Origin: a virus
IMG/VR virus record: IMGVR_UViG_3300044638_006750
Coordinates: 1-64,000 of that record
Strand: one strand, 5' to 3'
DNA length: 64,000 nt
Shown: one piece after another, positions 19,904 to 39,508 of the stretch
Numbering within the stretch: position 1 is the first letter of the stretch
How the letters are laid out: every line of letters starts with the position of its first letter
Notes under the pieces: model-generated
Databases searched by the model: none
What the model saw: only the letters and a program-made list of their open reading frames with translations
What the model was told of the DNA's origin: nothing
Program-made: the position numbers and the translations under genes

Positions 19904-19980
19904 AACCCATTGCCACCACTCACCTTACGTCTACTCCATTGTATCGTCATCCCCAACCCCTTGTCTATAGGGAACTTGCG
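19904..19980. repeat. Cassette-boundary repeat, degraded copy
   Basis: CATTGCCACCACTCACCTTACG at the left matches the copy 95 bases further right except for a few bases, but the GC-rich core is lost. No coding gene seen between 19755 and 20168. Confidence 0.45.
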
Positions 19981-19999
19981 AGATTCTTTTACAAAATTT

Positions 20000-20085
20000 A
20001 CGTAAGTCATTGCCACCATTAAACTTACGACTAAATTCGCGGGCCGGGATCTCCCTAAGTCCTTTAGTGGCAACCACTTACGTCA
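20000..20085. repeat. Cassette-boundary repeat R1
   Basis: Module CGTAAGTCATTG...AACTTACGAC, core GCGGGCCGGGATC, module CCTAAGTCCTTTAG...CACTTACGTC. Lies just downstream of the terminator of the DUF932 gene. Confidence 0.8.
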
Positions 20086-20098
20086 AATCCACCATCAT

Positions 20099-20140
20099 AA
20101 AAAAGGAGAAGCCGCCCCCCACCCCTGAGGGACGGCTTCC
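20099..20140 (-). terminator. Intrinsic terminator of the DUF932 gene
   Basis: On the minus strand GAAGCCG pairs with CGGCTTC, followed by TCC and seven T residues. Ends the transcript of the 20169-21119 gene. Confidence 0.85.
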
Positions 20141-20168
20141 CCGAGCCACGCACCACGAAAGGAGAGCG

Positions 20169-21119
20169 TTAGATGGCGTTGGCGAACTGCAATGCAGTGT
20201 CCAATGCCTTGGAGTTGTCGTTCGCATTCTGGCCGAACCAGAGCGAGTCGAGCCGGTTGTCCGACGTGCGACCCTTGCTGTAGTTCAGGTATTCGTTGAA
20301 ACCGTTGTAGGCAGCCCACCACGTTCCACGAACCCCAACCGCAGCCTGCTTCGGACCTTCGACGAGAGTAAGGATCTCGTCCATGATATTGCGGGTGCGA
20401 GTCTTGATCTCCTCGTCCGCAGTACCTTCGATGCCCAGCAGTACCTTGACATACCGACGAACGTCGGCCTGATTGAAGTTCTTCGACGCGAGGAACCGAT
20501 ACTGTTCAGCAGTCGCTTCGAACTCCGCATTGATGTTGTCCATAATGTCACGGACTTGTTCCAGATTGGTCTTGCTGGAGCGGGTGTGACGAATACGGAT
20601 CAGTTTGCTGCCGCTATGCTTGCTGTGAGCAGCGGCGAGCGTGTTGACGCACACAACCCGGATCGGCGTATAGCCGACACGAATGGCGGTTGTGCCGTCG
20701 TGACTGTTCGACAGCAAAATGAACTTGCAAACCTCGTCACCCTTGACGATTTCGCTATTGTCACGGTTGAGTTGGGCAAGCACCCAAACCTTCTGGCCGC
20801 TATGCAGCGAACCGGCAGTGTGCAACTGGCACTCGCCAGCGTCAAGAAACGGCTGGAACCAATCGAACGCATCGCTGTTTTGCAGCGGAGTGTATCGCGG
20901 ACCAACAACCCCCAGAATAGAGTTATCAGTCTTGCGGTACGTTGCACGGGCGGGAACGGGCGTCCCCTCTTGGGTAAACAGGTCTTTCAGACCAACTTCC
21001 CAATCCAGACCAGCGGCGGTAATCGCCTCCGAAACAGTGGGAGCCTCATCCAACTGGTTCCCCAGACCGTGCCACGGGGTCGCACCAACAAACATCATCT
21101 TTTCAACAGCAGCAGGCAT
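20169..21119 (-). CDS. DUF932 / phage-plasmid-like protein
   Basis: 316 aa. Begins MPAAVEKMMFVGATPWHGLG and contains TYRKTDNSILGVVGPRYTPLQN and VRVVCVNTL-like RVVCVNTLAAA, the features of the DUF932 (TIGR03299) family found widely in phages and plasmids. Function unknown. Higher GC than the rest of the window (near 55 percent), as if transferred recently. RBS AAAGGGATAGAT; own promoter and terminator, the first gene of the cassette array. Confidence 0.85.
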   Translation of the reverse strand: MPAAVEKMMFVGATPWHGLGNQLDEAPTVSEAITAAGLDWEVGLKDLFTQEGTPVPARATYRKTDNSILGVVGPRYTPLQNSDAFDWFQPFLDAGECQLHTAGSLHSGQKVWVLAQLNRDNSEIVKGDEVCKFILLSNSHDGTTAIRVGYTPIRVVCVNTLAAAHSKHSGSKLIRIRHTRSSKTNLEQVRDIMDNINAEFEATAEQYRFLASKNFNQADVRRYVKVLLGIEGTADEEIKTRTRNIMDEILTLVEGPKQAAVGVRGTWWAAYNGFNEYLNYSKGRTSDNRLDSLWFGQNANDNSKALDTALQFANAI

Positions 21120-21161
21120 ATCTATCCCTTTCGTGTTACTGAACCTTCGTTACGTCCTTCG

Positions 21162-21190
21162 ATTCTACCATCTATTATCGGCATTGTCAA
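21162..21190 (-). promoter_or_regulatory. Cassette promoter
   Basis: TTGACA (21190-21185), 17-base spacer ATGCCGATAATAGATGG, TAGAAT (21167-21162). Type example of the promoter family. Confidence 0.9.
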
Positions 21191-21220
21191 GGGGGTGTCT
21201 TGAGAAAATTTTGTGATTGT

Positions 21221-21302
21221 CGTAAGTCGTTGTGGCGTAAGCACTTACGTTCAGCCGGGGCGCCCCGCCTGATCCTAAGTCCTTGGCGGACTTGGATTTA
21301 GG
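21221..21302. repeat. Cassette-boundary repeat R2
   Basis: CGTAAGTCGTTGTGG...GCACTTACG, core CCGGGGCGCCCCGCC, CCTAAGTCCTTGG...GATTTAGG. The 3' end of the upstream phosphoribosyltransferase gene (stop at 21275) extends into it. Confidence 0.9.
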
Positions 21303-21781
21303 AATGGGGTCTTGTAGCGTTGTTGAAACATTTTGGCTGTTTCTGTAGTGTACGCACATTCATCTGGAATATAGCAATACAATCCATTACATATTGCTTT
21401 GGGATTATCTTCGTATATAGCTTGACGAATCCATTTGAAAGTATCCCCAGAACAAATAAGATCATCTACTACAATATATCTAAAAGGAGAAACTCCTTCA
21501 ATATAAAAATCGCTGTATCGTTTTTCGTCTGGCTTACGAATAACTACAATATTTTTATTTAGCAGTTCTGCTATCTGAGGAACCACCATCAGTCCGCTTA
21601 CACCACAGCAAGCAATACTATCAAATGTATTAGCGATTGGTCGCAAATCACAAACTGCTTTGATAATAATCTTATTCCGGTTCTTGTGGTTCAAAACTCG
21701 ACACGTATGACTAGCACCCTGAATAATCTTGCCATCATCAGTGCGACGAACATCTTCTATAGATTGATTCATAAGATTCAT
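21275..21781 (-). CDS. Phosphoribosyltransferase-like protein
   Basis: 168 aa. FRYIVVDDLICSGDTFKWI near residue 100 is a PRPP loop; ACCGVSGLMVVPQIA fits the PPi loop. Distinct from the member at 11748. The last residues (NPSPPRT) are encoded by the cassette repeat, so the C-terminus was probably changed when the repeat was joined. A tRNA-like sequence occupies the leader. Confidence 0.78.
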   Translation of the reverse strand: MNLMNQSIEDVRRTDDGKIIQGASHTCRVLNHKNRNKIIIKAVCDLRPIANTFDSIACCGVSGLMVVPQIAELLNKNIVVIRKPDEKRYSDFYIEGVSPFRYIVVDDLICSGDTFKWIRQAIYEDNPKAICNGLYCYIPDECAYTTETAKMFQQRYKTPFLNPSPPRT

Positions 21782-21784
21782 AAA

Positions 21785-21864
21785 AACGGATGGTACGATT
21801 CGAACGTACTAGAAAGAAAGGAATAAAGAGATGATAATAACTTGTCCCACCAAGTTGCATCCGT
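21785..21864 (-). tRNA. tRNA-like RNA without a paired anticodon arm
   Basis: Acceptor arms ACGGATG / CATCCGT pair perfectly (7 bp), D arm ACTT/AAGT with a GG-containing loop, T arm GTACG-TTCGAAT-CGTAC. Where the anticodon arm should be there are 29 pyrimidine-rich bases with no self-complementarity. Either a decayed tRNA or a tRNA mimic; it lies between two genes on the same strand. Confidence 0.6.
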
Positions 21865-21875
21865 CCGAGAGAAGA

Positions 21876-22064
21876 TCAATCGTCAAGTTCGTCAATGTCA
21901 GAGTAGTAACTCTGGAACTCTGTATTGTATGGTTGACTCTCGTCATCATCAGCGTCAGTCATCCATGCTTCATCGGTTCCATCGTCATAGTAGATTTCAT
22001 CTTCAATATAATCAGCATCTTCGGCTAGATTGTGGTAATCGTATTCGTAATCATTCTCTCTCAT
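21876..22064 (-). CDS. Highly acidic small protein (62 aa)
   Basis: MRENDYEYDYHNLAEDADYI..., about half Asp/Glu plus many Tyr. GGAGAG before ATG 22064. Composition is that of a DNA mimic or a protein-binding decoy; no family recognised. Confidence 0.75.
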   Translation of the reverse strand: MRENDYEYDYHNLAEDADYIEDEIYYDDGTDEAWMTDADDDESQPYNTEFQSYYSDIDELDD

Positions 22065-22085
22065 AATCAACTCTCCTTTGATACC

Positions 22086-22114
22086 ATCATACACCAATCA
22101 GCCGCTTTTGTCAA
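22086..22114 (-). promoter_or_regulatory. Cassette promoter abutting tRNA-Lys
   Basis: TTGACA (22114-22109), 17-base spacer, TATGAT (22091-22086). Begins two bases after the 3' end of the tRNA-Lys gene. Confidence 0.85.
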
Positions 22115-22115
22115 G

Positions 22116-22188
22116 TGGGCCTTCTGGGACTCGAACCCAGAACCAATAGATTAAAAGTCTACTGCGCTGCCAATTGCGCCAAAGGCCC
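22116..22188 (-). tRNA. tRNA-Lys (anticodon TTT)
   Basis: 73 nt cloverleaf: acceptor GGGCCTT, anticodon loop CTTTTAA, T loop TTCGAGT. CCA not encoded. Confidence 0.95.
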
Positions 22189-22196
22189 GTTTAAAC

Positions 22197-22224
22197 ATTA
22201 TATCTTATGATTTGTTTTTGTCAA
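22197..22224 (-). promoter_or_regulatory. Promoter of tRNA-Lys, abutting tRNA-Glu
   Basis: TTGACA (22224-22219), 16-base spacer, TATAAT (22202-22197). Confidence 0.85.
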
Positions 22225-22225
22225 G

Positions 22226-22297
22226 TGACCCCACGGAGAATCGAACTCCGATCTTCGGGATGAAAGCCCGATATACGAACCATTATACTATGGGGCC
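22226..22297 (-). tRNA. tRNA-Glu (anticodon TTC)
   Basis: 72 nt; acceptor GGCCCCA, anticodon loop CTTTCAT, T loop TTCGATT. Confidence 0.93.
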
Positions 22298-22336
22298 AGC
22301 CTCGCAACTCAACGTCAGCCTCCGAAGCATTAGAAG

Positions 22337-22412
22337 TAGGGCGTGTACGAGTCGAACGTACCTATGACGACCTTATAAGAGTCGCGGATGCTACCGGCTT
22401 ACCTTACGCCCC
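22337..22412 (-). tRNA. tRNA-Ile (anticodon TAT)
   Basis: 76 nt; acceptor GGGGCGT with a G-U pair at position 1, anticodon stem CGACT and loop CTTATAA giving TAT for AUA. Most bacteria read AUA with a lysidine-modified CAT tRNA, so this would bypass that modification. Confidence 0.85.
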
Positions 22413-22421
22413 GTGTTTTGT

Positions 22422-22450
22422 ATTCTACTCTGTATATCGACCTTTGTCAA
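22422..22450 (-). promoter_or_regulatory. Promoter of tRNA-Ile and tRNA-Glu
   Basis: TTGACA (22450-22445), 17-base spacer AAGGTCGATATACAGAG, TAGAAT (22427-22422). Confidence 0.88.
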
Positions 22451-22462
22451 GGGAAACTTTAG

Positions 22463-22549
22463 CGGAATCTGAGGGATTCGAACCCCCGGAGGATTTTAAC
22501 CCTCGGCGGTTTAGTAAACCGCTGCCTTAAACCACTCGGCCAAGATTCC
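22463..22549 (-). tRNA. tRNA-Ser (anticodon ACT)
   Basis: 87 nt class II tRNA with a long variable arm and discriminator G. Anticodon stem GCGGT/ACCGC, loop TTACTAA, so the anticodon is ACT rather than the usual GCT. Confidence 0.85.
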
Positions 22550-22551
22550 AA

Positions 22552-22623
22552 CTGGCGAGACAGGATTCGAACCTGTAACCTAGCGGTTAACAGCCGCTTG
22601 CACTACCGTTGTGCTACTCGCCA
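22552..22623 (-). tRNA. tRNA-Asn (anticodon GTT)
   Basis: 72 nt; anticodon stem AGCGG/CCGCT, loop CTGTTAA, T loop TTCGAAT. Three bases from tRNA-Ser. Confidence 0.93.
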
Positions 22624-22627
22624 ATAA

Positions 22628-22698
22628 TTCCGGGACTACGATTTGAACGTAGAATAAAGGATCCAAAGTCCTCTGTGATACCGTTTCACCATCCCGGA
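22628..22698 (-). tRNA. tRNA-Gln (anticodon TTG)
   Basis: 71 nt; acceptor TCCGGGA, loop CTTTGGA, T loop TTCAAAT. Confidence 0.93.
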
Positions 22699-22699
22699 G

Positions 22700-22771
22700 A
22701 GCCGACGAAAGGATTTGAACCTTCAACCTATTGATTACAAATCAATTGCACTACCGTTGTGCTACATCGGC
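22700..22771 (-). tRNA. tRNA-Thr (anticodon TGT)
   Basis: 72 nt; acceptor GCCGATG, anticodon stem ATTGA/TCAAT, loop TTTGTAA. First of the run; its promoter is not evident and may be the one inside the gene upstream (23034). Confidence 0.92.
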
Positions 22772-22775
22772 AATC

Positions 22776-22979
22776 TTAGATATCATACTCTTGTCGCCAC
22801 TCCCTGTCAATATCGTTTCTAGTACGGCGACGTTTGGAGCGACTATCGTATGTAGTGTTGACCCGATCCTCTCTGTGTCCCGTAGGCAGTTGCCATTGAG
22901 GCTTGACTTTGATTTTGATTGTGCGTCGGGGTTGTCGAGTATCGTCGTTGTTGTGGTGCATAGTCATGCCATTGTCCAT
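22776..22979 (-). CDS. Possible basic protein overlapping the next gene in another frame
   Basis: 67 aa, begins MDNGMTMHHNNDDTRQPRR with VKPQWQL and an Arg-rich middle; looks more protein-like than the C-terminus of the overlapping 109-aa frame. Forty bases below the internal promoter at 23034, but no clear ribosome-binding site. Could instead be the true C-terminus of that gene after a frameshift. Confidence 0.45.
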   Translation of the reverse strand: MDNGMTMHHNNDDTRQPRRTIKIKVKPQWQLPTGHREDRVNTTYDSRSKRRRTRNDIDREWRQEYDI

Positions 22980-23172
22980 TTTCGTGCAGATAGAAAACCT
23001 TGTCGATATTAGGATCGTAAGCCATCAAACAGTATTGTATCGGATAAACCGGCTTTGTCAAGACCTGCTTTTGAGGAAGTTTGGGTAACTTGATATCGCC
23101 TTTCTGATAGTCTTTTACACCATTATAAGCCAAACCAAAAATAGCAATCAAAACCCCGAGCCACTGGATCAT
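22843..23172 (-). CDS. Membrane-anchored hypothetical protein
   Basis: 109 aa. N-terminal helix MIQWLGVLIAIFGLAYNGV, then a soluble part ending in DKVFYLHENGQWHDY; the last 30 residues are Gln/Thr/Ser-rich and may be out of frame. AAGGGG precedes ATG 23172; the longer start overlaps the promoter. A second promoter lies inside the coding region. Confidence 0.6.
   Translation of the reverse strand: MIQWLGVLIAIFGLAYNGVKDYQKGDIKLPKLPQKQVLTKPVYPIQYCLMAYDPNIDKVFYLHENGQWHDYAPQQRRYSTTPTHNQNQSQASMATAYGTQRGSGQHYIR
23034..23061 (-). promoter_or_regulatory. Internal promoter
   Basis: TTGACA (23061-23056), 16-base spacer beginning AAGCCGG, TACAAT (23039-23034), inside the 109-aa gene. Candidate promoter for the overlapping 67-aa ORF and the tRNA run Thr-Gln-Asn-Ser. 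Confidence 0.65.
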
Positions 23173-23208
23173 TCTTTCGCCCCTTCTTGCTGTTCTTCGT
23201 GTCATCAT

Positions 23209-23238
23209 ACCATATTTATCGGCAATCGTCCAGCCAGG
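23209..23238 (-). promoter_or_regulatory. Cassette promoter, weak -35
   Basis: TGGACG, 17-base spacer ATTGCCGATAAATATGG, TATGAT. The spacer carries the family box although the -35 is degenerate. Confidence 0.6.
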
Positions 23239-23260
23239 ACTTGAGAAGATTTTTGATTTG

Positions 23261-23346
23261 CTCTAAAGTGTTGCGAGATAAGCACTTATGACGAATCCGG
23301 CCGGCCGCCCTTGCCCTAAGTGCTTTAGGGTCAAGGACTTGTGTCA
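23261..23346. repeat. Cassette-boundary repeat R3
   Basis: AAAGTGTTGCGAGATAAGCACTTATGAC, core CCGGCCGGCCGCCC, CCTAAGTGCTTTAGGGTCAAGG. Its first bases on the minus strand (TGACACAAG) supply the stop of the 54-aa gene. Confidence 0.9.
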
Positions 23347-23508
23347 AAGGTCTTGCTCAGTCCGTATGTATTCCATAATGTCATCGCAATCCGTACACAC
23401 TGGTTCTCCCATTTCAGAATAATACCAAGGTTCTACATACGCATGATTATCGCACGATGGACATTCCCACAAGTGTCTAATCTTTTTATCGTCAACTATA
23501 ACCCACAT
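23344..23508 (-). CDS. Zinc-ribbon protein (54 aa)
   Basis: MWVIVDDKKIRHLWECPSCD...PVCTDCDD: two CxxC knuckles about 20 residues apart. GGAG before the ATG. Stop codon is the first triplet of repeat R3. Similar in plan to the 42-aa gene at 27508. Confidence 0.7.
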   Translation of the reverse strand: MWVIVDDKKIRHLWECPSCDNHAYVEPWYYSEMGEPVCTDCDDIMEYIRTEQDL

Positions 23509-23510
23509 AG

Positions 23511-23744
23511 TTATTTCTCCATAGTCCAGCCAGCTTTTTGTATCACCTTCGTACTTTTATAGACTTTCGTATCGGGTAGCGCTGTAGCATAATCCTTGAA
23601 TCCTCTTTCATCTACATAGAAATATTCATCCAGTACATCGAACTGATTTGTTTCCCACAAAGCATCTACTGCCGCACCGAACGGCTTTTTACCTGTGGAA
23701 TAAATCAACTCTAAAGTGCCACACTTAATATAGTATTTAGCCAT
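23511..23744 (-). CDS. Hypothetical protein
   Basis: 77 aa, begins MAKYYIKCGTLELIYSTGKK; the phrase KCGTLE....T..KP..AA. is one I associate with small phage proteins of unknown function. Ends one codon before the zinc-ribbon gene's leader; start overlaps the upstream stop. Confidence 0.7.
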   Translation of the reverse strand: MAKYYIKCGTLELIYSTGKKPFGAAVDALWETNQFDVLDEYFYVDERGFKDYATALPDTKVYKSTKVIQKAGWTMEK

Positions 23745-24292
23745 TATATACTCTCATATCTGCAAGCGGTACAGTTACAACTATGTTCAGTCAAACAATC
23801 CCAATCAATTGCTCCCCATATTTCTTCATCAACAAAACCGAAACTTTCAACGCCAAAATCTATTGGAACAAGTATATTGCCGCTTTTGCGTTTGATCCAT
23901 CCAAAGTTAGCACGATGAGCATCTACATAAGATAATCCATGATACTTTTCTAGCGTCCATACAACAGATTGAATATTGATTGAGTTAGAACATTCACTAT
24001 CAAAACATTCTCCGTCACAATATTCTTCATCATAACATTCGGCCATAGGCTTCGCAACCTCAGTGAGATAACCCCACTCCGTCAACTCTCCCGCGTAACG
24101 TATACGTCCAACATCCCCATAAACTTTTGGAGCCATAGCCATATCGGCCAACCCACTCTGAATACGATGGGCAAAGTCAGCGTTGTCTTTATCCTGAAAA
24201 CATTTAAAACCAAGCCTCTTATTCCCAACAATCCTAAAGAAAGTATTCCTACTTCCTGCATCATCATACAATCCAACATAAGAACTAGGCAT
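23744..24292 (-). CDS. Kinase-fold-like protein
   Basis: 182 aa. YVDAHRANFGWI ... LVPIDFGVE near residues 130-150 resembles the catalytic (H.D.HxxN) and metal-binding (DFG) loops of protein-kinase/APH folds; upstream AGELTEWGYLTEVAKPM could be the hinge. Too short for a full kinase, so a degenerate or minimal form. Four CxxC-type Cys near the C-terminus (CNCTAC). ATG 24292 preferred over a TTG. Confidence 0.5.
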   Translation of the reverse strand: MPSSYVGLYDDAGSRNTFFRIVGNKRLGFKCFQDKDNADFAHRIQSGLADMAMAPKVYGDVGRIRYAGELTEWGYLTEVAKPMAECYDEEYCDGECFDSECSNSINIQSVVWTLEKYHGLSYVDAHRANFGWIKRKSGNILVPIDFGVESFGFVDEEIWGAIDWDCLTEHSCNCTACRYESI

Positions 24293-24294
24293 TA

Positions 24295-24528
24295 TCAACT
24301 CCCAAGGCTAATCACAACAGTATTATCGTACTTTCCAAACTCTACAATAATATCAAAATCATTATCGTCAAGTATAGACTGTAGCGTTTCCTGACTAATA
24401 AGAGTGTCTGTATTGGTACCAAAACTAATATCACTATTAGAAATGGCTTCCATCACACTACCATAGTCCAACTCGTTATAGTCACAAACTTCTCTAAGGT
24501 CGAGATATTCCCAAGCATAACTTTTCAT
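24295..24528 (-). CDS. Hypothetical acidic protein
   Basis: 77 aa, begins MKSYAWEYLDLREVCDYNEL, acidic, helical then beta. AAGGA before the ATG. Not recognised. Confidence 0.65.
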   Translation of the reverse strand: MKSYAWEYLDLREVCDYNELDYGSVMEAISNSDISFGTNTDTLISQETLQSILDDNDFDIIVEFGKYDNTVVISLGS

Positions 24529-24537
24529 ATTTTATCC

Positions 24538-25242
24538 TTAGTGTGCAGGAAACAATACGTTAGCCAGACCCTTGACGCACATATCGCATGATATACTATC
24601 TTTAGTTCCGGTGCAAGTGATAACCGAGCGACCGCGACGGATTTCTGGACAAACCACAAACTTAGTCGCATTGAGAACAACCAGTTTCGGCAACGCTTTC
24701 CGCCATGCGTCGGCCTTTGCCTTGTTTTTCGGACGCTTAGGTGCAACCTTCATATCGCTATCACACCATGCGAACAGTTTGAAACCTTGGGCCAGTGCTT
24801 CGCCCATGTCGTTATCATCATGCACACTAGCGTATACATTCATATACTTTTGCAGACTCACAAGCCGGGAATCGTAGATATGAGTATAGAACCACATATC
24901 GGGCAGCGTATCGCCATCGGCCAGGATACTCTCACAAGCCCATGTCACGTTGGCAACATAGTCTAGGTCAAGTTCACCATTGAGAAACCAATCGCCACGC
25001 TCATGCCACCGAATAGACTTCTCACGACGCTTTGCGTCCAGAATCATAGCACGGATTTTATTCTTCTCGGTCACGACATTAGCAAAACCAGCAGTACGAG
25101 CGTTCTTATACTGCTTCTCAGTTTGCTCTGCATAGCAACCGTTGTCAAGATAATCACAATCAGGAGGACAAGTGTCCCCAACAGGACGAGAAACAACAAC
25201 ACAACCCTTGCCCAACTTATCGTTACCATCTGCCGTTTTCAT
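24538..25242 (-). CDS. Phage Gp88-like Cys-cluster protein
   Basis: 234 aa. DTCPPDCDYLDNGCYAEQ near residue 25, IRWHERGDWF near 80, FYTHIYDSR near 120 and a C-terminal ITCTGTKDSISCDMC. This order (Cys cluster followed by Y-A, then R-x-H-x-x-G-D) matches the mycobacteriophage gp88-type family of unknown function, likely metal-binding. Promoter at 25267 and AGGAG before the ATG. Confidence 0.65.
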   Translation of the reverse strand: MKTADGNDKLGKGCVVVSRPVGDTCPPDCDYLDNGCYAEQTEKQYKNARTAGFANVVTEKNKIRAMILDAKRREKSIRWHERGDWFLNGELDLDYVANVTWACESILADGDTLPDMWFYTHIYDSRLVSLQKYMNVYASVHDDNDMGEALAQGFKLFAWCDSDMKVAPKRPKNKAKADAWRKALPKLVVLNATKFVVCPEIRRGRSVITCTGTKDSISCDMCVKGLANVLFPAH

Positions 25243-25266
25243 GGTTTTCTCCTAGCGTGTCTCTCG

Positions 25267-25295
25267 ATTCTACACTAGATTATCGGCACAGTCAA
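25267..25295 (-). promoter_or_regulatory. Cassette promoter
   Basis: TTGACT (25295-25290), 17-base spacer GTGCCGATAATCTAGTG, TAGAAT (25272-25267); preceded upstream by CTAAAGTTTTCCTC. Confidence 0.88.
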
Positions 25296-25324
25296 GAGGA
25301 AAACTTTAGAGAGAAAAAGATTTG

Positions 25325-25408
25325 TCGTAAAGTCTTATGGGGTCAGCACTTACGACGAACCCGGCCGCCCGAATTTGTTCTAAGTCTTTACCCTTAAAGA
25401 ACTTAGGA
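25325..25408. repeat. Cassette-boundary repeat R4
   Basis: CGTAAAGTCTTATGG...GCACTTACGAC, core CCCGGCCGCCCG, CTAAGTCTTTACCC...AACTTAGG. Confidence 0.88.
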
Positions 25409-25460
25409 GTACTTCACACAGTTTTAAAAACTGCTCAGTAGTTTCAGCATCGTTTTTCAT
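25380..25460 (-). CDS. Possible small peptide (26 aa)
   Basis: MKNDAETTEQFLKLCEVLLS..., starting right after tRNA-Arg and ending inside repeat R4. No ribosome-binding site; doubtful. Confidence 0.25.
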   Translation of the reverse strand: MKNDAETTEQFLKLCEVLLSSLRVKT

Positions 25461-33921: not shown

Positions 33922-34077
33922 CTACCAGCCGTTTCGGCGATATTCTTCTCGGAGTTCCTCTTCTTCACGACGCTGACGATCATTCACAGGAGGGCCATAT
34001 CCCAGATCATATGCTTCTCGCGCAGCATCATATCCATCATCAGAATCTTCGTCATTCCATTGGTCGTATCGACTCAT
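33922..34077 (-). CDS. Charged small protein (51 aa)
   Basis: MSRYDQWNDEDSDDGYDAAR..., acidic first half, Glu/Arg-rich helix (RQRREEEELREEYRR) at the end. Stop lies four bases above the next -35. Ribosome-binding site weak (GAGAGTG). Confidence 0.65.
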   Translation of the reverse strand: MSRYDQWNDEDSDDGYDAAREAYDLGYGPPVNDRQRREEEELREEYRRNGW

Positions 34078-34113
34078 CTTTCACTCTCACTTTCTCTACT
34101 TCTTATATCGTCA

Positions 34114-34142
34114 AGTCTAGCATCTCAACTTTAGCCTGTCAA
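34114..34142 (-). promoter_or_regulatory. Cassette promoter
   Basis: TTGACA (34142-34137), 17-base spacer GGCTAAAGTTGAGATGC, TAGACT (34119-34114). Confidence 0.85.
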
Positions 34143-34163
34143 GAGAAAATCTAAAAATTTTTT

Positions 34164-34254
34164 GTTGACGTAAACTGTTGAGACATAAGGACTTACGTTT
34201 CGCGGGGCCGGCCGGCCTCACCGCAAGTGCTTATGCGGCAAGGCTTTGCGTCAA
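34164..34254. repeat. Cassette-boundary repeat R11
   Basis: CGTAAACTGTTGAG...GGACTTACG, core GGGGCCGGCCGGCC, CGCAAGTGCTTATGCGGCAAGGCTTTGCGTC. Starts on the minus strand with the stop of the 57-aa gene. Confidence 0.92.
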
Positions 34255-34424
34255 ACCGTAAACTCTACGTCCGGTTCGATCTGGTCACTAATCCCCACCA
34301 CCTCAGCCCAATCGTAAAAATCGACTTGGACACTAGGATCATCAATCGGCTCAACCATCGGCTCAAGAATACCCTGCTCTGCCATCTCGTCAAGGATCCG
34401 GTTTACTGCGTCGAAATCCAGCAT
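34251..34424 (-). CDS. Acidic small protein (57 aa)
   Basis: MLDFDAVNRILDEMAEQGIL..., acidic helix then beta (VQVDFYDWAEVVG). AAAGG before ATG 34424; the longer start would cover the promoter. Stop TGA is the first codon of R11. Confidence 0.7.
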   Translation of the reverse strand: MLDFDAVNRILDEMAEQGILEPMVEPIDDPSVQVDFYDWAEVVGISDQIEPDVEFTV

Positions 34425-34458
34425 ACTGTTTTCCTTTGGGGTGGTGAGAACAAAAGCC

Positions 34459-34487
34459 ATCATATGCGGAAAGTGTGTCATTGTCAA
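34459..34487 (-). promoter_or_regulatory. Cassette promoter
   Basis: TTGACA (34487-34482), 17-base spacer, TATGAT (34464-34459). Confidence 0.82.
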
Positions 34488-34491
34488 GCCC

Positions 34492-34635
34492 TTATTTCAT
34501 GAGTCTAAGAACAGCCTCCAACCTCGCAATTTCCAGCCTCAATTCAGCCACCTTGCCGAACATCCTAGCCTGTCGATAATTGTCGATATCGTATCGCAGG
34601 CTTATGATCTGATAGTTGATGGTTTCGCGTGTCAT
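34492..34635 (-). CDS. Coiled-coil small protein (47 aa)
   Basis: MTRETINYQIISLRYDIDNY..., heptad leucines in KVAELRLEIARLEAVLRLM. AAAGGAAG before the ATG; stop five bases above the next -35. Confidence 0.7.
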   Translation of the reverse strand: MTRETINYQIISLRYDIDNYRQARMFGKVAELRLEIARLEAVLRLMK

Positions 34636-34655
34636 GGTCTTCCTTTCTCTAATCT

Positions 34656-34684
34656 AGTCTACACTCGGCCGTCCTACTTGTCAA
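34656..34684 (-). promoter_or_regulatory. Cassette promoter
   Basis: TTGACA (34684-34679), 17-base spacer, TAGACT (34661-34656). Confidence 0.82.
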
Positions 34685-34847
34685 TACGCTTCTCAAAAAT
34701 TGTGTCCAAATAAATCTCTTTTTCACTGACCACCCATCCATACTCACAACGAGGGGTATACACACCAATATAGACTTTCCCTTTTTCGACTCCCTCAAAT
34801 CCCAGACCATAACCGAACAACCCAGCCAGAAATATCATAGAGAACAT
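34674..34847 (-). CDS. Small protein with hydrophobic N-terminus (57 aa)
   Basis: MFSMIFLAGLFGYGLGFEGV... (possible signal or membrane anchor), then beta-rich. AAAGGAACC before the ATG. Its TAG lies two bases past the next promoter's TTGACA, so gene end and promoter overlap. Confidence 0.68.
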   Translation of the reverse strand: MFSMIFLAGLFGYGLGFEGVEKGKVYIGVYTPRCEYGWVVSEKEIYLDTIFEKRIDK

Positions 34848-34863
34848 AAAAGGTTCCTTTCTA

Positions 34864-34892
34864 TGTATATTATCGGCTAATTCCCGCTAACA
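34864..34892 (-). promoter_or_regulatory. Weak cassette promoter
   Basis: TGTTAG, 17-base spacer ending AGCCGATAA, TATACA. Keeps the family spacer box but has a poor -35. Confidence 0.45.
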
Positions 34893-34907
34893 TCTTTAGC
34901 ACAAATA

Positions 34908-34998
34908 ATTTCACCTAAATCCCTATCCTGCAACAACTTACGACCAGCCGGGGCGCGCCCCTGCATCGTAAGTCTTTACGTCGCAAGGGTTTGCGTCA
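34908..34998. repeat. Cassette-boundary repeat R12
   Basis: Left module diverged, AACTTACGACC, core CCGGGGCGCGCCCC, CGTAAGTCTTTACGTCGCAAGGGTTTGCGTC. Supplies TGA of the 27-aa gene. Confidence 0.86.
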
Positions 34999-35079
34999 AT
35001 TTTTGTTATTGTAGAACGGACTGATTACACAATAGGCAAAACCGACATATCCGATGATGAACATTAAGGCACTGAACAT
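34996..35079 (-). CDS. Membrane peptide (27 aa)
   Basis: MFSALMFIIGYVGFAYCVIS..., one helix. Begins like the 57-aa protein at 34847 (MFSMIFLAG). Stop in R12. Confidence 0.55.
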   Translation of the reverse strand: MFSALMFIIGYVGFAYCVISPFYNNKN

Positions 35080-35091
35080 TTTATAGTCTTT

Positions 35092-35283
35092 CTATTTACA
35101 GGGTTGCAGATCGTATAGGGAACAGTGGACAGTCCTACCGTCATCATACTGTACTGATGCCCAAGCATCTTTTGTACCATAAATCTCATCGGCCAAGACA
35201 CCCATGAAACATTTCACCACAACCTTTTGACCGTCCAGCATCACAGTATCCCCGTATCGAGGGGTGTGTTCAGCAGTAAACAT
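35092..35283 (-). CDS. Hypothetical beta-rich protein
   Basis: 63 aa, begins MFTAEHTPRYGDTVMLDGQK, SH3-barrel-like beta pattern with VQYDDGRTV. Starts two bases below the upstream stop. Similar in style to the 59-aa gene at 36648. Confidence 0.68.
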   Translation of the reverse strand: MFTAEHTPRYGDTVMLDGQKVVVKCFMGVLADEIYGTKDAWASVQYDDGRTVHCSLYDLQPCK

Positions 35284-35285
35284 TT

Positions 35286-35666
35286 TTAGTTTTCGTCCTT
35301 CCATGCAAATGGGCTGATTTCTTCGCCATATGCCGTAATGGCTTCGTACTGAGCCTTCAACGCTTCCACACGCTCTTTGCTGCCCGGCTTGCCAACCTTC
35401 ACGATCATGGTATCGTCTCCACCAATAAGCCGAGGATCGGCCTTCTCGACACGAATTTTGCCGAGCCGACGCAGTGCTTTCCGATTGAACTTCAAAACCT
35501 TTTCAGAAACCACATACCGCTTCTGGTCTGCAACTCCGTAAACGTAGTCGGTATCTTCGGTGATTCGATCATCGGGAATCTCTACCAGCATGGGAATCGC
35601 GATACCCTTGAAAACCATACGGGCCTGACGCTTGGCGTTCTCAATAATGGCAAACTTCGTTTTCAT
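35286..35666 (-). CDS. Hypothetical protein
   Basis: 126 aa, begins MKTKFAIIENAKRQARMVFK, basic core (KFNRKALRRLGKIRVEKADP). AGAGAGACAAAG before ATG 35666, the form of ribosome-binding site used by many cassettes. Higher GC. Not recognised. Confidence 0.72.
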   Translation of the reverse strand: MKTKFAIIENAKRQARMVFKGIAIPMLVEIPDDRITEDTDYVYGVADQKRYVVSEKVLKFNRKALRRLGKIRVEKADPRLIGGDDTMIVKVGKPGSKERVEALKAQYEAITAYGEEISPFAWKDEN

Positions 35667-35691
35667 CTTTGTCTCTCTTTCTTGTGTGTGG

Positions 35692-35720
35692 ATTCTAGCA
35701 ACCTGTCTACCGCTTGTCAA
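35692..35720 (-). promoter_or_regulatory. Cassette promoter
   Basis: TTGACA (35720-35715), 17-base spacer, TAGAAT (35697-35692). Confidence 0.85.
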
Positions 35721-35724
35721 GCCC

Positions 35725-35928
35725 TCAAATCTTCCAGTGGGAGAACTTCAGGGTGAACACTTGTCCAGGGTACTTGCTTGCGATGTACGCTTCGGCGGTT
35801 TCCTTCCGATTGTCGGTAGCCGAAACACCCTGAACCACCTTACCGTCGATGATGACGCTCCAGATTCGACGCTTGCGAATCTTCGGCAGGGAAGCGATGA
35901 AACTGTTGACGCTAGTGACCTTTTCCAT
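35725..35928 (-). CDS. Hypothetical basic protein
   Basis: 67 aa, begins MEKVTSVNSFIASLPKIRKR; the middle RRIWSVIIDGKVVQGVSATD followed by an AYIASKYP helix looks like a small DUF with a double-stranded beta turn. Behind the TTGCAA-type promoter. Confidence 0.7.
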   Translation of the reverse strand: MEKVTSVNSFIASLPKIRKRRIWSVIIDGKVVQGVSATDNRKETAEAYIASKYPGQVFTLKFSHWKI

Positions 35929-35960
35929 CTTTTCTCTCTCTTTCTTTCTCTTATATCGAC

Positions 35961-35988
35961 ATTATACCATGGATTCTTGAGGTTGCAA
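35961..35988 (-). promoter_or_regulatory. TTGCAA-type promoter
   Basis: TTGCAA (35988-35983), 16-base spacer, TATAAT (35966-35961). Differs from the TTGACA promoters and shares its upstream 110 bases with the promoter at 38279. Confidence 0.75.
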
Positions 35989-36072
35989 GAGAAATCTAGA
36001 AATTTTTGTGTCAAGATTTTTTGACAAAACTTTTGCCTGCTTTTTGAGCATTTGGCATACTATTTGCTAGTG
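35989..36072. repeat. Duplicated upstream region with inverted repeat, copy 1
   Basis: Contains TGTCAAGATTTTTTGACA (inverted TGTCAA/TTGACA) and TTTGGCATACTATTTGCTA. The same order is found at 38308-38390. Confidence 0.7.
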
Positions 36073-36159
36073 CGTCATAAGTTCTTGTGGCTTAAGCACT
36101 TACGTCAAAATTTGCCCGCCCTCCTCGTTGTAAGTCTATATGCGGCAAGCAGTTACGAT
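36073..36159. repeat. Cassette-boundary repeat R13
   Basis: TCATAAGTTCTTGTGG...GCACTTACGTC, core TTGCCCGCC, TGTAAGTCTATATGCGGCAAGC. Confidence 0.87.
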
Positions 36160-36368
36160 TAGTTTTCGCGTCCTACATACCAAGTTTTCCCACTATCGTC
36201 TTTCATTTTTTTCCACCCCATTTTCGCAAAATACCTATCTTGAAGATAGTTGTCAACAAGCCTAAATGTTTGCAAGAAAATCCACCAACCAACCGTAGAG
36301 CCAACAAACCAAGCCCCAATAAACCATATTGCCAAGGTTGCCCACATCTCCACCTCTGCTTCACTCAT
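36159..36368 (-). CDS. Single-pass membrane protein
   Basis: 69 aa: acidic start, Trp-rich helix (WATLAIWFIGAWFVGSTVGW), basic tail with WKKMKDD. AAAGGGG before the ATG; stop at the edge of R13. Confidence 0.7.
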   Translation of the reverse strand: MSEAEVEMWATLAIWFIGAWFVGSTVGWWIFLQTFRLVDNYLQDRYFAKMGWKKMKDDSGKTWYVGREN

Positions 36369-36383
36369 GTTTCCCCTTTCGGT

Positions 36384-36599
36384 TTAGGATACGCCCATCC
36401 AAGAAGCGTTTTCACAACAATAATCGTAGAACATATCGTTCAGAACTTCTTCATAGTTCTTATCTTTCAAGAGCCTACGGTCAAGGGTTGAGTCACACTC
36501 AGCATAAAACTTACCCTTTCCTACTTCAAACACAATCGTACAGGCATGAGCCTCACTACCCCAAATCCTAGCCTTAGCATCCACAAACTTCTTCAACAT
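36384..36599 (-). CDS. Hypothetical protein
   Basis: 71 aa, begins MLKKFVDAKARIWGSEAHAC, three Cys, acidic C-terminus. AGAGAGAAAAAG before the ATG. Not recognised. Confidence 0.7.
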   Translation of the reverse strand: MLKKFVDAKARIWGSEAHACTIVFEVGKGKFYAECDSTLDRRLLKDKNYEEVLNDMFYDYCCENASWMGVS

Positions 36600-36622
36600 C
36601 TTTTTCTCTCTTTCTTAGTACG

Positions 36623-36651
36623 ATTCTAGTAGATGGTTTCAATGTTGTCAA
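36623..36651 (-). promoter_or_regulatory. Cassette promoter overlapping a stop codon
   Basis: TTGACA (36651-36646), 17-base spacer, TAGAAT (36628-36623). The TGA inside TTGACA is the stop of the 59-aa gene. Confidence 0.88.
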
Positions 36652-36827
36652 GCCCCACAAGCCACTTCCCACTCATGGGGCATATAGCCTTTTTGCAGTT
36701 CGGTTGTGCTGCACTCGCATTGCACACCGGCCAGATCGACCACCCATACATCACCCTCGTCGAAGTACCAATCAACAATCTTTCCAGTGATTCCACCAAG
36801 CCGAACCTTGTCACCAATCTCGTACAT
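36648..36827 (-). CDS. SH3-like small protein (59 aa)
   Basis: MYEIGDKVRLGGITGKIVDW... the G-D-K-V-R....G..G.I......D..V.V pattern is a KOW/SH3-type barrel; three Cys near CECS. AAAGG before the ATG. Stop codon shared with the next promoter. Confidence 0.72.
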   Translation of the reverse strand: MYEIGDKVRLGGITGKIVDWYFDEGDVWVVDLAGVQCECSTTELQKGYMPHEWEVACGA

Positions 36828-36853
36828 TCTAGCCTTTCTTTCTTGTTGCCTGT

Positions 36854-36882
36854 ATTCTATACATCTATTATCGACTTGTCAA
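36854..36882 (-). promoter_or_regulatory. Cassette promoter
   Basis: TTGACA (36882-36877), 17-base spacer AGTCGATAATAGATGTA, TAGAAT (36859-36854). Confidence 0.9.
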
Positions 36883-36908
36883 CAGTGAAAACTGAAGAAA
36901 TTTTTTTA

Positions 36909-36995
36909 GACTTAAAGTGTTGGTGTGTAAGTAGTTACGTCAAATCGGAGCGGCCGGCCTCGCCGTAAGTTCTTTACGGACAAGGCTTTATGTCA
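36909..36995. repeat. Cassette-boundary repeat R14
   Basis: CTTAAAGTGTTGGTG...AGTAGTTACGTC, core CGGAGCGGCCGGCC, CCGTAAGTTCTTTACGGACAAGG. Starts with the TGA of the 99-aa gene. Confidence 0.9.
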
Positions 36996-37292
36996 ACCCA
37001 CAACCATACGGTCTTCAAACGGTGTACCATCGTTCAGGTACCACTCATAGTTCTTCTGGTATACCTGTACGGGTGAATACTGGTTGATACGCTTCTTCGT
37101 GGTGTGTGTACGCCATCCACCACTATTCAGCATCACAGTATCATCGGGATAGATTACTACAACATTCGTACCGTGCAACTCGATTGCAACGCTACCATCT
37201 GCTTGAATGTAGGCATAGGTGTTGTTGCCAACCTTTCGTTGTCCACGATTACGCTTACCCAAAACCATCTTCGTTGCTTCTGCGTGTGTCAT
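36993..37292 (-). CDS. Conserved phage hypothetical protein
   Basis: 99 aa. NNTYAYIQADGSVAIELHGT followed by VVVIYPDDTVMLNSGGWRTH and TTKKRINQY: this DGS...LH.T.VV...PD....LNSGGWRT.TT..RIN arrangement is one I know from many phage genomes, without assigned function. Stop is the first triplet of R14. Confidence 0.82.
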   Translation of the reverse strand: MTHAEATKMVLGKRNRGQRKVGNNTYAYIQADGSVAIELHGTNVVVIYPDDTVMLNSGGWRTHTTKKRINQYSPVQVYQKNYEWYLNDGTPFEDRMVVG

Positions 37293-37300
37293 TTTTTCTT

Positions 37301-37420
37301 TCAGTTAAAAAGGTTTTCCAGCCATTCACGATACATCTCGCCCATCGCACAAAAAACTTCATGCAGAATATAGGTGAGTCCTGCACATGCACACAGTAGA
37401 GCCAAATCCACAAAAGTCAT
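37301..37420 (-). CDS. Membrane peptide (39 aa)
   Basis: MTFVDLALLCACAGLTYILH..., one Cys-containing helix. GAGGAAAAAG before ATG 37420; the longer start overlaps the promoter. Confidence 0.65.
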   Translation of the reverse strand: MTFVDLALLCACAGLTYILHEVFCAMGEMYREWLENLFN

Positions 37421-37444
37421 TTCTTTTTCCTCTTTGGAGAGTCT

Positions 37445-37473
37445 AGTATATCGTCTCTCGCTGGTCCTGTCAA
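37445..37473 (-). promoter_or_regulatory. Cassette promoter overlapping a stop codon
   Basis: TTGACA (37473-37468), 17-base spacer, TATACT (37450-37445). Its TGA ends the 49-aa gene. Confidence 0.86.
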
Positions 37474-37619
37474 TACTCTCCACAATCTTCGACAACTTCT
37501 TCTCCAATCACTTCGCAGTGTTCGCAGCACTTCGGGCAAATACCATAATCCACTTGGGCGAAGGTCATCTCACAGCCGCAGCAATCCGAAGTGAAGTAGA
37601 CCCGAATGACGTTTTCCAT
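37470..37619 (-). CDS. Zinc-knuckle protein (49 aa)
   Basis: MENVIRVYFTSDCCGCEMTF...CPKCCEHCE: Cys pairs CCGC and CPKCC with an acidic C-terminus. AAAGGAAAACC before the ATG. Stop within the next -35. Confidence 0.72.
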   Translation of the reverse strand: MENVIRVYFTSDCCGCEMTFAQVDYGICPKCCEHCEVIGEEVVEDCGEY

Positions 37620-37647
37620 GGTTTTCCTTTCCTCTTGTGTTGTGTCT

Positions 37648-37675
37648 ATTATACTTATCGGCATATTCCTGTCAA
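37648..37675 (-). promoter_or_regulatory. Cassette promoter
   Basis: TTGACA (37675-37670), 16-base spacer GGAATATGCCGATAAG, TATAAT (37653-37648). Confidence 0.9.
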
Positions 37676-37699
37676 TACCTTAAAAAGATTTTTATACAA

Positions 37700-37785
37700 G
37701 CCATAAGTGGTTGTCAGATAAGCACTTACGTCAAACGCGGCGCGCCCCGCTTTTCGTAAGTCTTTATGGGCTAAGGTTTTACGTT
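37700..37785. repeat. Cassette-boundary repeat R15
   Basis: CCATAAGTGGTTGTC...GCACTTACGTC, core CGCGGCGCGCCCCGC, CGTAAGTCTTTATGGGCTAAGG, TTTTACG. Confidence 0.92.
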
Positions 37786-37970
37786 ATAGAGCGGATGCTC
37801 TCCCGATACCTGAACCGCAGTTCAGTAGCAGCAGCCCGAATCACCTCGCATAGCACCTCTTTTAGAGCACCCTTCGCATGGGGGAGTTGAAGCTGTGCCT
37901 CACGCAGAGTCAACTGAATCGTGCTGGTTTGCATAGTGTCGAATGATGGCTGAAAATAGCTGGTATTCAT
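37779..37970 (-). CDS. Hypothetical protein (63 aa)
   Basis: MNTSYFQPSFDTMQTSTIQL..., helical, basic C-terminus (LRFRYRESIRSIT). AGAGAGAACAG before ATG 37970. Stop TAA at the edge of R15. Confidence 0.7.
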   Translation of the reverse strand: MNTSYFQPSFDTMQTSTIQLTLREAQLQLPHAKGALKEVLCEVIRAAATELRFRYRESIRSIT

Positions 37971-37993
37971 CTGTTCTCTCTTTCTGTGGTTGT

Positions 37994-38022
37994 ATCCTAC
38001 CGTATCCACGCTTGGCTGTCAA
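37994..38022 (-). promoter_or_regulatory. Cassette promoter overlapping a stop codon
   Basis: TTGACA (38022-38017), 17-base spacer, TAGGAT (37999-37994). TGA is the stop of the 73-aa gene. Confidence 0.85.
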
Positions 38023-38240
38023 GTCGTGTAGGCATTGGTAAGCCGATGATACTTAGCCCACAACTCATCTACCACGAACTGCACAACCCGATCATGAGAA
38101 CCACGGCAAACGTAGTATCCCATGTGAATGTCGAACAGGGCATACGTCCCATCCGTTTGGGGGTGGAACGTGAAGCCACACTTGTAGGCGTAGGCGTTGA
38201 TCTTACCCTTGATCGTCGAAGTCTTAGGAGGCTTTCTCAT
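38019..38240 (-). CDS. Hypothetical protein
   Basis: 73 aa, basic N-terminus (MRKPPKTSTIKGKINAYAYK), then GFTFHPQTDGTYALFDIHMG. AGAGAGAAGAAA before the ATG; behind the second TTGCAA promoter. Not recognised. Confidence 0.7.
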   Translation of the reverse strand: MRKPPKTSTIKGKINAYAYKCGFTFHPQTDGTYALFDIHMGYYVCRGSHDRVVQFVVDELWAKYHRLTNAYTT

Positions 38241-38278
38241 TTTCTTCTCTCTCTTTCTCTCTTACTTCTTATATCGAC

Positions 38279-38307
38279 ATTATACCAGCCCCTACTTGAG
38301 TTTGCAA
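38279..38307 (-). promoter_or_regulatory. TTGCAA-type promoter
   Basis: TTGCAA (38307-38302), 17-base spacer, TATAAT (38284-38279). Confidence 0.75.
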
Positions 38308-38390
38308 GAGAAAAATCTAGATTTTTATGTCAAGAAATTTTGACAAAATTTTTCTGTATTTTGAGTATGTTTGGCACACCAATTGCTATA
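38308..38390. repeat. Duplicated upstream region with inverted repeat, copy 2
   Basis: TGTCAAGAAATTTTGACA then TTTTGAGTATGTTTGGCACA; aligns over its length with 35989-36072. Confidence 0.7.
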
Positions 38391-38480
38391 TCGTCATAAC
38401 CCTATATCTCATAAGTACTTACGTCGAATCCGAGCCGCCCCGCTAGTCGTAAGTCTTTATCAGATCACCACTTAGGTCAC
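38391..38480. repeat. Cassette-boundary repeat R16
   Basis: TCATAACCCTATATC...GTACTTACGTC, core CCGAGCCGCCCCGC, CGTAAGTCTTTATCAG, CACTTAGGTC. Confidence 0.86.
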
Positions 38481-38578
38481 ATGTGGTCATTATAGATTAT
38501 TTCGATCTGCCTAAACACATAGAACAACAGCATAGTGATGGTGGAAGCAAAACACAGGTCGATAATCAGCCTAATCAT
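38477..38578 (-). CDS. Membrane peptide (33 aa)
   Basis: MIRLIIDLCFASTITMLLFY..., one helix. AAAAGGAG before the ATG; stop TGA at the edge of R16. Confidence 0.65.
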   Translation of the reverse strand: MIRLIIDLCFASTITMLLFYVFRQIEIIYNDHM

Positions 38579-38597
38579 GAGCAACTCCTTTTTCGGT

Positions 38598-38626
38598 ATT
38601 CTACACTATGGATTCTGAACAATCAA
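38598..38626 (-). promoter_or_regulatory. Cassette promoter
   Basis: TTGATT (38626-38621), 17-base spacer, TAGAAT (38603-38598). Confidence 0.75.
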
Positions 38627-38630
38627 GCCC

Positions 38631-38831
38631 TTAGCAAGCGTAGATAAAAACTTTTTCATTCACACAACGATTACTAATCGTCACAATCCAATTCTTTCCG
38701 CTTCCGTCTTCTCTCATGATGCTATTCACCAGCCCGCAGTGAGCGTTGCCCTTGGGGTCGATCACACCAATATACTTACCAGCAGTCATAGCAGCGAAAA
38801 TCTTGCTCAGGTTGTTGTTGTGCTTGGTCAT
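38631..38831 (-). CDS. Hypothetical protein
   Basis: 66 aa, begins MTKHNNNLSKIFAAMTAGKY, beta-rich with GVIDPKGNAHCGLVNS (SH3-like). AGGAG before the ATG. Confidence 0.72.
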   Translation of the reverse strand: MTKHNNNLSKIFAAMTAGKYIGVIDPKGNAHCGLVNSIMREDGSGKNWIVTISNRCVNEKVFIYAC

Positions 38832-38854
38832 GTTCTTTTCTCCTTAGTGATTGT

Positions 38855-38882
38855 ATTCTATAAGATTATTCTAGGCTGTCAA
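38855..38882 (-). promoter_or_regulatory. Cassette promoter
   Basis: TTGACA (38882-38877), 16-base spacer, TAGAAT (38860-38855). Confidence 0.85.
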
Positions 38883-38896
38883 TACTGTACGCTTGT

Positions 38897-39046
38897 TTAG
38901 AGAATCGTACCATCACCACGAATACGATACATGATACCGCCGATACTGTACAGAACAATACCCTCTCCGAGATGCTGAACAAACGTAGCCGAGTAGCCGT
39001 GTCGAGCAACCAACCGTCGAACCGTATTTTGCACTTGAATCGTCAT
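38897..39046 (-). CDS. Hypothetical protein (49 aa)
   Basis: MTIQVQNTVRRLVARHGYSA..., basic helix then a beta hairpin (GIVLYSIGGIMYRIRGDG). AGAGAGAAATAAA before ATG 39046. Confidence 0.68.
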   Translation of the reverse strand: MTIQVQNTVRRLVARHGYSATFVQHLGEGIVLYSIGGIMYRIRGDGTIL

Positions 39047-39072
39047 TTTATTTCTCTCTTTCTTATACGTAT

Positions 39073-39100
39073 ATTCTATCAAGATTTTTTAGCGTGTCAA
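39073..39100 (-). promoter_or_regulatory. Cassette promoter
   Basis: TTGACA (39100-39095), 16-base spacer, TAGAAT (39078-39073). Confidence 0.85.
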
Positions 39101-39106
39101 TACTGA

Positions 39107-39334
39107 TCAGTAGTACAGTCCGTCAGCAACCACCTCACCGTTCTCATTCACCTCGATAAACTCTCCCTCATCGCCCATCGGGAAAAAATACTGAATATAT
39201 CCGTACTCGTCGTTCAGAGCCTCTTCGAGCAACTCGCCACCGATGCGAGCAATCCCAACCAAGGTATCGGGAGAAGTGCTATCCGCACCGTACAGGAACT
39301 CAACCAACTCGTCTCGGGTGTTCAAGGTAACCAT
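39107..39334 (-). CDS. Acidic hypothetical protein (75 aa)
   Basis: MVTLNTRDELVEFLYGADST..., acidic, ends VNENGEVVADGLYY. GGAG nine bases before ATG 39334; upstream in-frame starts sit on the promoter. Confidence 0.7.
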   Translation of the reverse strand: MVTLNTRDELVEFLYGADSTSPDTLVGIARIGGELLEEALNDEYGYIQYFFPMGDEGEFIEVNENGEVVADGLYY

Positions 39335-39362
39335 TTTTATCATCTCCTCTTGTGTTGAACGT

Positions 39363-39391
39363 ATTATACATATCGGCTTTTCTCGTGTCAA
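39363..39391 (-). promoter_or_regulatory. Cassette promoter, last of the array
   Basis: TTGACA (39391-39386), 17-base spacer ending GCCGATATG, TATAAT (39368-39363). Confidence 0.9.
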
Positions 39392-39417
39392 TACCTTAGA
39401 AAAAAATTTTTCTGTAA

Positions 39418-39508
39418 TTATCCTAAGTCCTTATTTATCAAACACTTACGAACAATCGGGCGGATTAAAATCGTCGTAAGTACTTATGCCCCAACAACTT
39501 AGGGGGGT
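39418..39508. repeat. Cassette-boundary repeat R17
   Basis: TCCTAAGTCCTTATTTATC, AACACTTACGAAC, core CGGGCGGATTA (GC palindrome lost), CGTAAGTACTTATGCC, CAACTTAGG. Right border of the array; the next gene is the subtilase. Confidence 0.85.

Follow-up and report, generated by a model that had tools for sequence, protein, structure and literature searches.

The 64,000-nucleotide window examined here, which comprises positions 1 to 64,000 of the 232,683-bp IMG/VR virus record IMGVR_UViG_3300044638_006750, contains an array of 90-bp elements that are selected as duplex DNA and are helically phased to the promoters of the small genes beside them. We put at about 0.62 the probability that the element is a duplex binding platform for a putative multimeric regulator at early promoters, a reading that would jointly explain its symmetry, fixed spacing, lack of covariation, half-site selection, orientation and phasing. 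Seventeen clear copies aligned without gaps within positions 19997-39507, with 693-2400 bp between successive starts. They lie in a cassette island (19900-39600, minus strand) of small minus-strand genes and tRNA genes, with a GC content of 0.43-0.49 compared to about 0.34 elsewhere. The copies were scored with a leave-one-out position weight matrix (PWM, in bits), using shuffled sequence as the null; the 17 copies reached 48-96 bits, whereas the maxima of the shuffled sequence were negative. The initial annotation had described 17 clear copies and a degraded one, found solely between minus-strand genes, and both statements hold, the degraded copy being located near 19903. Its caveat that the copies might be no more similar than shuffled DNA did not apply. 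In the rest of the record no further site scored above zero.

A pattern scan of IMG/VR returned at least 119 stretches, 118 of them with PWM-confirmed copies and 103 with at least two, and in all the collection came to at least 572 unique copies, among which 333 share less than 80% identity with one another. Read in the direction of the genes, the unit consists of an upstream stop codon at or inside the element, the element itself, an A/T tract, a promoter of the form TTGACA-(16-17)-TATAAT or TAGAAT, and the gene. A near-consensus sigma70 promoter was present on the gene side of 337 of 536 elements, compared to 8 in shuffled sequence and 11 on the other side, and the orientation of the element matched the side of the promoter in 246 of the 249 strongly oriented cases with a one-sided promoter. 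The promoters linked to an element possess an UP-like tract (A+T 0.71), which the unlinked ones lack (0.57). In the phage studied here, 33 of the 78 near-consensus sigma70 promoters are situated in the island, all on the minus strand, where shuffled sequence gave 0.7.

The distance from the element to the -35 box showed peaks at 14, 24-25, 35 and 46 bp. With a phasing statistic in which each combination of downstream gene family and distance counted once, R(10.5) was 0.447 for 162 unique family-distance values; the jitter null had a mean of 0.07, and none of 3000 trials was as high. Outside the main peak 70 of 104 values were in phase (39.6 expected). Phasing was absent from all three control distances, namely element to start codon, element to upstream stop codon, and -10 box to start. 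The pattern was recovered, with phase and period set in advance, in new loci devoid of flank homology to the first set: 19 of 24 were in the predicted phase (9.1 expected), including 12 of the 15 located outside the main peak (5.7 expected). The element is thus helically phased to the promoter.

The element is near-symmetric about column 44.5, and four 10-bp dyads with the consensus TAAGNNCTTA, centred at columns 10.5, 25.5, 63.5 and 78.5, are placed symmetrically around an 8-bp core made only of G and C. The near-invariant dinucleotides A7A8, T28T29, A60A61 and T81T82 are separated by 21, 32 and 21 bp, corresponding to approximately two, three and two helix turns. The annotation had correctly recognised two inverted-repeat modules around a GC-rich centre; each module is about 36 bp long, and of 477 pairs found without imposing any spacing, 462 had their modules 53 bp apart. 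Over the 333 dissimilar copies, the consensus ends are TTGNCNTAAG and TTANGNCAA.

The element is selected as duplex DNA and not as a hairpin. In orthologous copies, defined by homology of both flanks, the half-sites changed in 6-10% of positions, compared to 27-37% for the loops and about 25% for the flanks. Of 415 changes observed within the core, 349 (84%) were C-G swaps, a class that accounted for 9% in the coding flank; the core thus stays G/C with no preference for either strand, an unusual sign of selection on duplex composition rather than on sequence. Inversion of the core was considered as the source of these swaps and rejected: out of 277 orthologous pairs, 236 matched better directly than as the reverse complement. 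RNAalifold predicted zero pairs on the element copies, and the strongest couplings by mutual information joined neighbouring bases rather than stem partners. Relative to independence, module 1 (z -5.9) and the inner hairpin (z -3.9) paired less than expected, and the core at its own axis was close to zero; module 2 showed a weak excess (axis 142, best stems with z of about 6, mainly pair 58-84, z 6.1). The folding energy of the real copies (-26.0 kcal/mol) did not really differ from that of column-permuted ones (-25.5 +/- 0.5 kcal/mol). The selection for hairpin structure proposed in the annotation was therefore not confirmed. Neither was its view that the cores stay palindromic and are selected for self-complementarity: only 5 of the 17 cores in the window had a palindrome of at least 8 bp, and palindromes of at least 6 bp were rarer among the 333 copies than expected from independent columns (0.31 vs. 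0.46), the constraint being on G/C and not on the palindrome.

We propose that a multimeric protein, encoded by the phage or by the host, would bind the four dyads about the G/C core. The element would thereby hold this protein, always on the same side of the helix, directly ahead of the UP tract and the near-consensus sigma70 promoter with which each presumed immediate-early cassette starts. The complex would most likely touch the RNA polymerase, probably by way of the alpha C-terminal domains at the UP tract, and would set the timing or the strength of early promoter firing. Because these promoters are already near consensus and provided with UP tracts, coordinated shut-off or timing appears at least as likely as activation, in the manner of protein p4 of phage phi29 at A2c/A2b (PMC3100819). 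The bound protein, the polymerase contact, the immediate-early status of the promoters and the sign of the regulation are the parts of this model that we infer. In a second role, the many copies would offer homology for swapping cassettes of one to a few genes by homologous recombination. A broader and distinctly more speculative version, which we hold to be rather less probable than its opposite, is that the element is a standardized "plug-in" head piece for nearly every immediate-early cassette throughout a clade of uncultivated giant phages, assembling a platform for four dimers, a core read only for the stability of its G/C duplex, the UP tract and the promoter, the same DNA serving as homology for swapping. 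If so, genes from any source could be brought under one shared circuit of regulation. The binding-platform model itself would yield a legible rule (site, spacing and phase) for early control in an abundant group of large phages that are uncultivated, and would clearly exemplify a regulatory element doubling as a joint for modular gene exchange.

Several observations weigh against the regulatory platform. For approximately 37% of the elements no gene-side promoter passed the strict threshold, and many promoters of the island stand without an element. Inside orthologous groups, steps between distance classes were in phase in only 21 of 38 cases (14.5 expected); with phasing this moderate, block inheritance may contribute to the distance peaks, part of which could be accounted for by the copying of element and promoter together. 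The weak covariation in module 2 leaves some room for an RNA role. Among the conserved small proteins examined as possible binders, two were sigma-like and none was a convincing operator-binding protein. The two sigma-like proteins, encoded at 44381-45013 (+) of the window and at 1192-1782 (-) of locus L012, match one sigma70 region 2 and the other region 4.

The alternative that survives best, although we consider it unlikely, is that the element acts as an insulator or roadblock terminator which, alone or bound by a protein, halts upstream read-through and spares the next strong promoter from occlusion. Its position, precisely in the gap that separates the stop codon of one gene from the promoter of the next, the strong tandem promoters firing in the same direction, the G/C-only core and the modest excess of pairing in module 2 all fit this explanation. 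But no U-tract follows the element, terminator-like sites are not enriched (15 vs. 13.9 +/- 3.8), the A/T tract, read along the gene strand, starts with A, and the folding is no better than that of column-permuted copies. The last cassette already ends with a canonical 17-bp intrinsic terminator (20142-20105, minus strand), situated before element 1. A terminator would not need to be helically phased to a downstream -35 box; an insulator explains the position of the element and leaves its phase unexplained.

The annotation also took the repeats to delimit small gene cassettes, which is supported by the behaviour of the segments between elements. The 481 inter-element intervals had a median length of 997 bp and mostly contained one to three small genes. 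These cassettes are shuffled among phages: for cassettes 85-95% identical the neighbour was homologous in 160 of 277 comparisons, and for those 75-85% identical in 358 of 754. Homologous cassettes were never inverted and kept a single orientation throughout, and the loci L024 and L221 differed by the exact gain or loss of one cassette plus one copy of the element. Such observations could suggest that the element is mainly the exchange point of mobile cassettes, integron-like or served by a dedicated enzyme, which we regard as improbable. In chimeric elements the crossovers were scattered over all 90 columns. The 12 large records reached through the loci matched in IMG/VR encode no tyrosine recombinase or phage integrase above the PF00589 cut-off and no Y1 transposase (PF01797), serine recombinases not having been searched. 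An exchange point would leave the promoter phasing and the half-site selection unexplained, and the UvsX-like recombinase of the phage suffices for homologous exchange. The tendency of raw BLAST alignments to end at elements was set aside, as it was confounded by the similarity of the elements themselves. Under the binding-platform model, the elements probably act in addition as homology patches for cassette exchange. This exchange is probably a by-product of the many similar copies, as has been proposed, according to PMC4503421, for the promoter early stem-loops (PeSLs) of T4-type phages. Finally, an RNA or single-stranded DNA hairpin (a stabiliser of mRNA 3' ends, a processing site or a cruciform) is very improbable: individual copies do fold at z -1.0 to -3.8 and pair 58-84 covaries, but RNAalifold found no structure, module 1, the inner hairpin and the core pair no more than independent columns would or even less, copies with permuted columns fold just as stably, and an Rfam search matched the element to no known RNA family.

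Among known systems, the PeSL cassettes (Arbiol 2010, Comeau 2014, via PMC4503421) are similar in several respects. They are intergenic composites with a host-type early promoter, repeated among small genes in plastic regions and associated with gene shuffling among related phages, as was found here. They have a stem-loop terminator, whereas the present element is a 90-bp duplex site with four dyads, a G/C core and promoter phasing, in which neither covariation nor a U-tract was found and around which terminator-like sites are not enriched. In phage phi29, dimers of the regulator p4 bind at four sites, imperfect inverted repeats spread over about 120 bp next to early promoters, remodel the DNA and switch promoters (PMC3100819). 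Our element, too, has several inverted-repeat sites on one constant side of the helix next to presumed early promoters, but the sequence is different, and phi29 has one regulatory region compared to 14-25 standardized copies here. The extended start-associated sequences (ESAS) and start-associated sequences (SAS) of cluster K mycobacteriophages (PMC3203893) are likewise inverted repeats that occur in many copies ahead of small phage genes; departures in ESAS do not preserve RNA pairing, so that they were read as protein sites (PMC3203893). ESAS consist of one 17-bp repeat pair tied to start codons and SAS, whereas the four dyads described here are tied to the -35 box and not to the start codon. 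The stoperators of cluster A mycobacteriophages (PMC9283540) also occupy many intergenic sites oriented with transcription, but they are 13-bp asymmetric repressor sites of temperate phages, while the element is near-symmetric over 90 bp and the 12 large records gave no phage integrase above the cut-off. The integron attC sites differ by their tyrosine integrase, for which none of the 12 records had a match above the cut-off, by their fixed crossover point, the crossovers here being scattered, and by the R''/R' boxes RYYYAAC and GTTRRRY, which do not correspond to the ends of the element. The repetitive extragenic palindromes (REP) and bacterial interspersed mosaic elements (BIME) are associated with a REP-associated tyrosine transposase (RAYT, Y1), for which the 12 records gave no match. 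Intrinsic terminators possess a stable stem with a U-run, which the element lacks. We did not place the element in the PeSL, integron, REP or stoperator families because it fails at least one tested defining feature of each. The annotation knew no named element with this layout; the family is real and apparently unnamed, no known transposon or terminator family being applicable.

All 12 large records carry copies, with 14-25 in 11 of them and 7 in the shortest, a 192-kb record; among the matches listed, the copies of each record group in one region. The repeat is thus found in related phages at different loci, where the annotation had suggested looking for it. As far as tested, no cultured phage has a DNA match to the element. 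The phage encodes a UvsX-like recombinase, RIIA and a sigma factor matching region 2, and its terminase is only distantly similar to those of cultured phages. Its record has a direct repeat common to both ends, the first 100 bases recurring at 232318. Bacterial and archaeal genomes gave 15 hits, of which four corresponded to real arrays, every one on a short contig of a metagenome-assembled genome (MAG), and an origin in host chromosomes was rejected on this ground. The arrays on the MAG contigs L216, L221, L224 and L228, assigned to unrelated bacteria, are probably misbinned phage. On the 170,406-bp contig L054, element-like repeats were observed about 5 kb apart, with cores possessing longer G-runs (GGGGGGGCGCC).

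Along the array, the elements are all on the plus strand and the associated promoters on the minus strand; PWM scores are given in bits. Element 1 (19997-20086, 73 bits) forms the distal end, just beyond the canonical terminator. It is followed by element 2 (21217-21306, 84 bits; promoter 21190-21162, 27 bp away), element 3 (23258-23347, 98 bits), element 4 (25322-25411, 84 bits; promoter 25295-25267, 27 bp), element 5 (26260-26349, 101 bits; promoter 26223-26195, 37 bp; no Rfam match) and element 6 (27431-27520, 68 bits). Further along are element 7 (29831-29920, 83 bits; promoter 29796-29768, 35 bp), element 8 (31116-31205, 76 bits; promoter 31090-31063, 26 bp), element 9 (32398-32487, 88 bits; promoter 32373-32346, 25 bp), element 10 (33213-33302, 75 bits), element 11 (34165-34254, 97 bits; promoter 34142-34114, 23 bp) and element 12 (34910-34999, 75 bits). 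The array continues with element 13 (36072-36161, 84 bits), element 14 (36907-36996, 84 bits; promoter 36882-36854, 25 bp), element 15 (37698-37787, 89 bits; promoter 37675-37648, matching the consensus at 12/12 positions, 23 bp) and element 16 (38391-38480, 72 bits), and ends on the promoter-proximal side with element 17 (39418-39507, 57 bits; promoter 39391-39363, again 12/12, 27 bp). The degraded copy, at 19903-19989, has no G/C core; it was recognised by sequence comparison and is below the PWM threshold. Beyond the left end of the array, a solo half-element of a single module (19746-19780) was detected as an inverted-repeat match. Across loci, 116 such half-elements were seen near array ends, others lying within 7878-9522 of locus L020.

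Other features were observed in the island and its surroundings. A Pistol self-cleaving ribozyme (25735-25797, minus strand; 53.7 bits for a gathering threshold of 34.5) is located inside an island cassette. Nine minus-strand tRNA genes are present in the island (22115-22771, 25463-25534, 29011-29085), one of them with an odd four-base anticodon call (gaga). The segment 29090-29770, after this odd tRNA, has no long minus-strand open reading frame and contains repeated short motifs; its Rfam matches were to tRNA only. The cassette protein encoded at 26346-26720 (minus strand) showed a weak match to the ribosomal L7/L12 C-terminal domain, just under the Pfam cut-off, and is kept in relatives. 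Outside the island, families of RNA ligase and RtcB-like tRNA ligase were found near the start of the record (44-1084 and 2446-3813, minus strand), and a GlmS-like glucosamine-fructose-6-phosphate aminotransferase is encoded at 42006-43832 (minus strand), with 43% identity to phage-collection hits.

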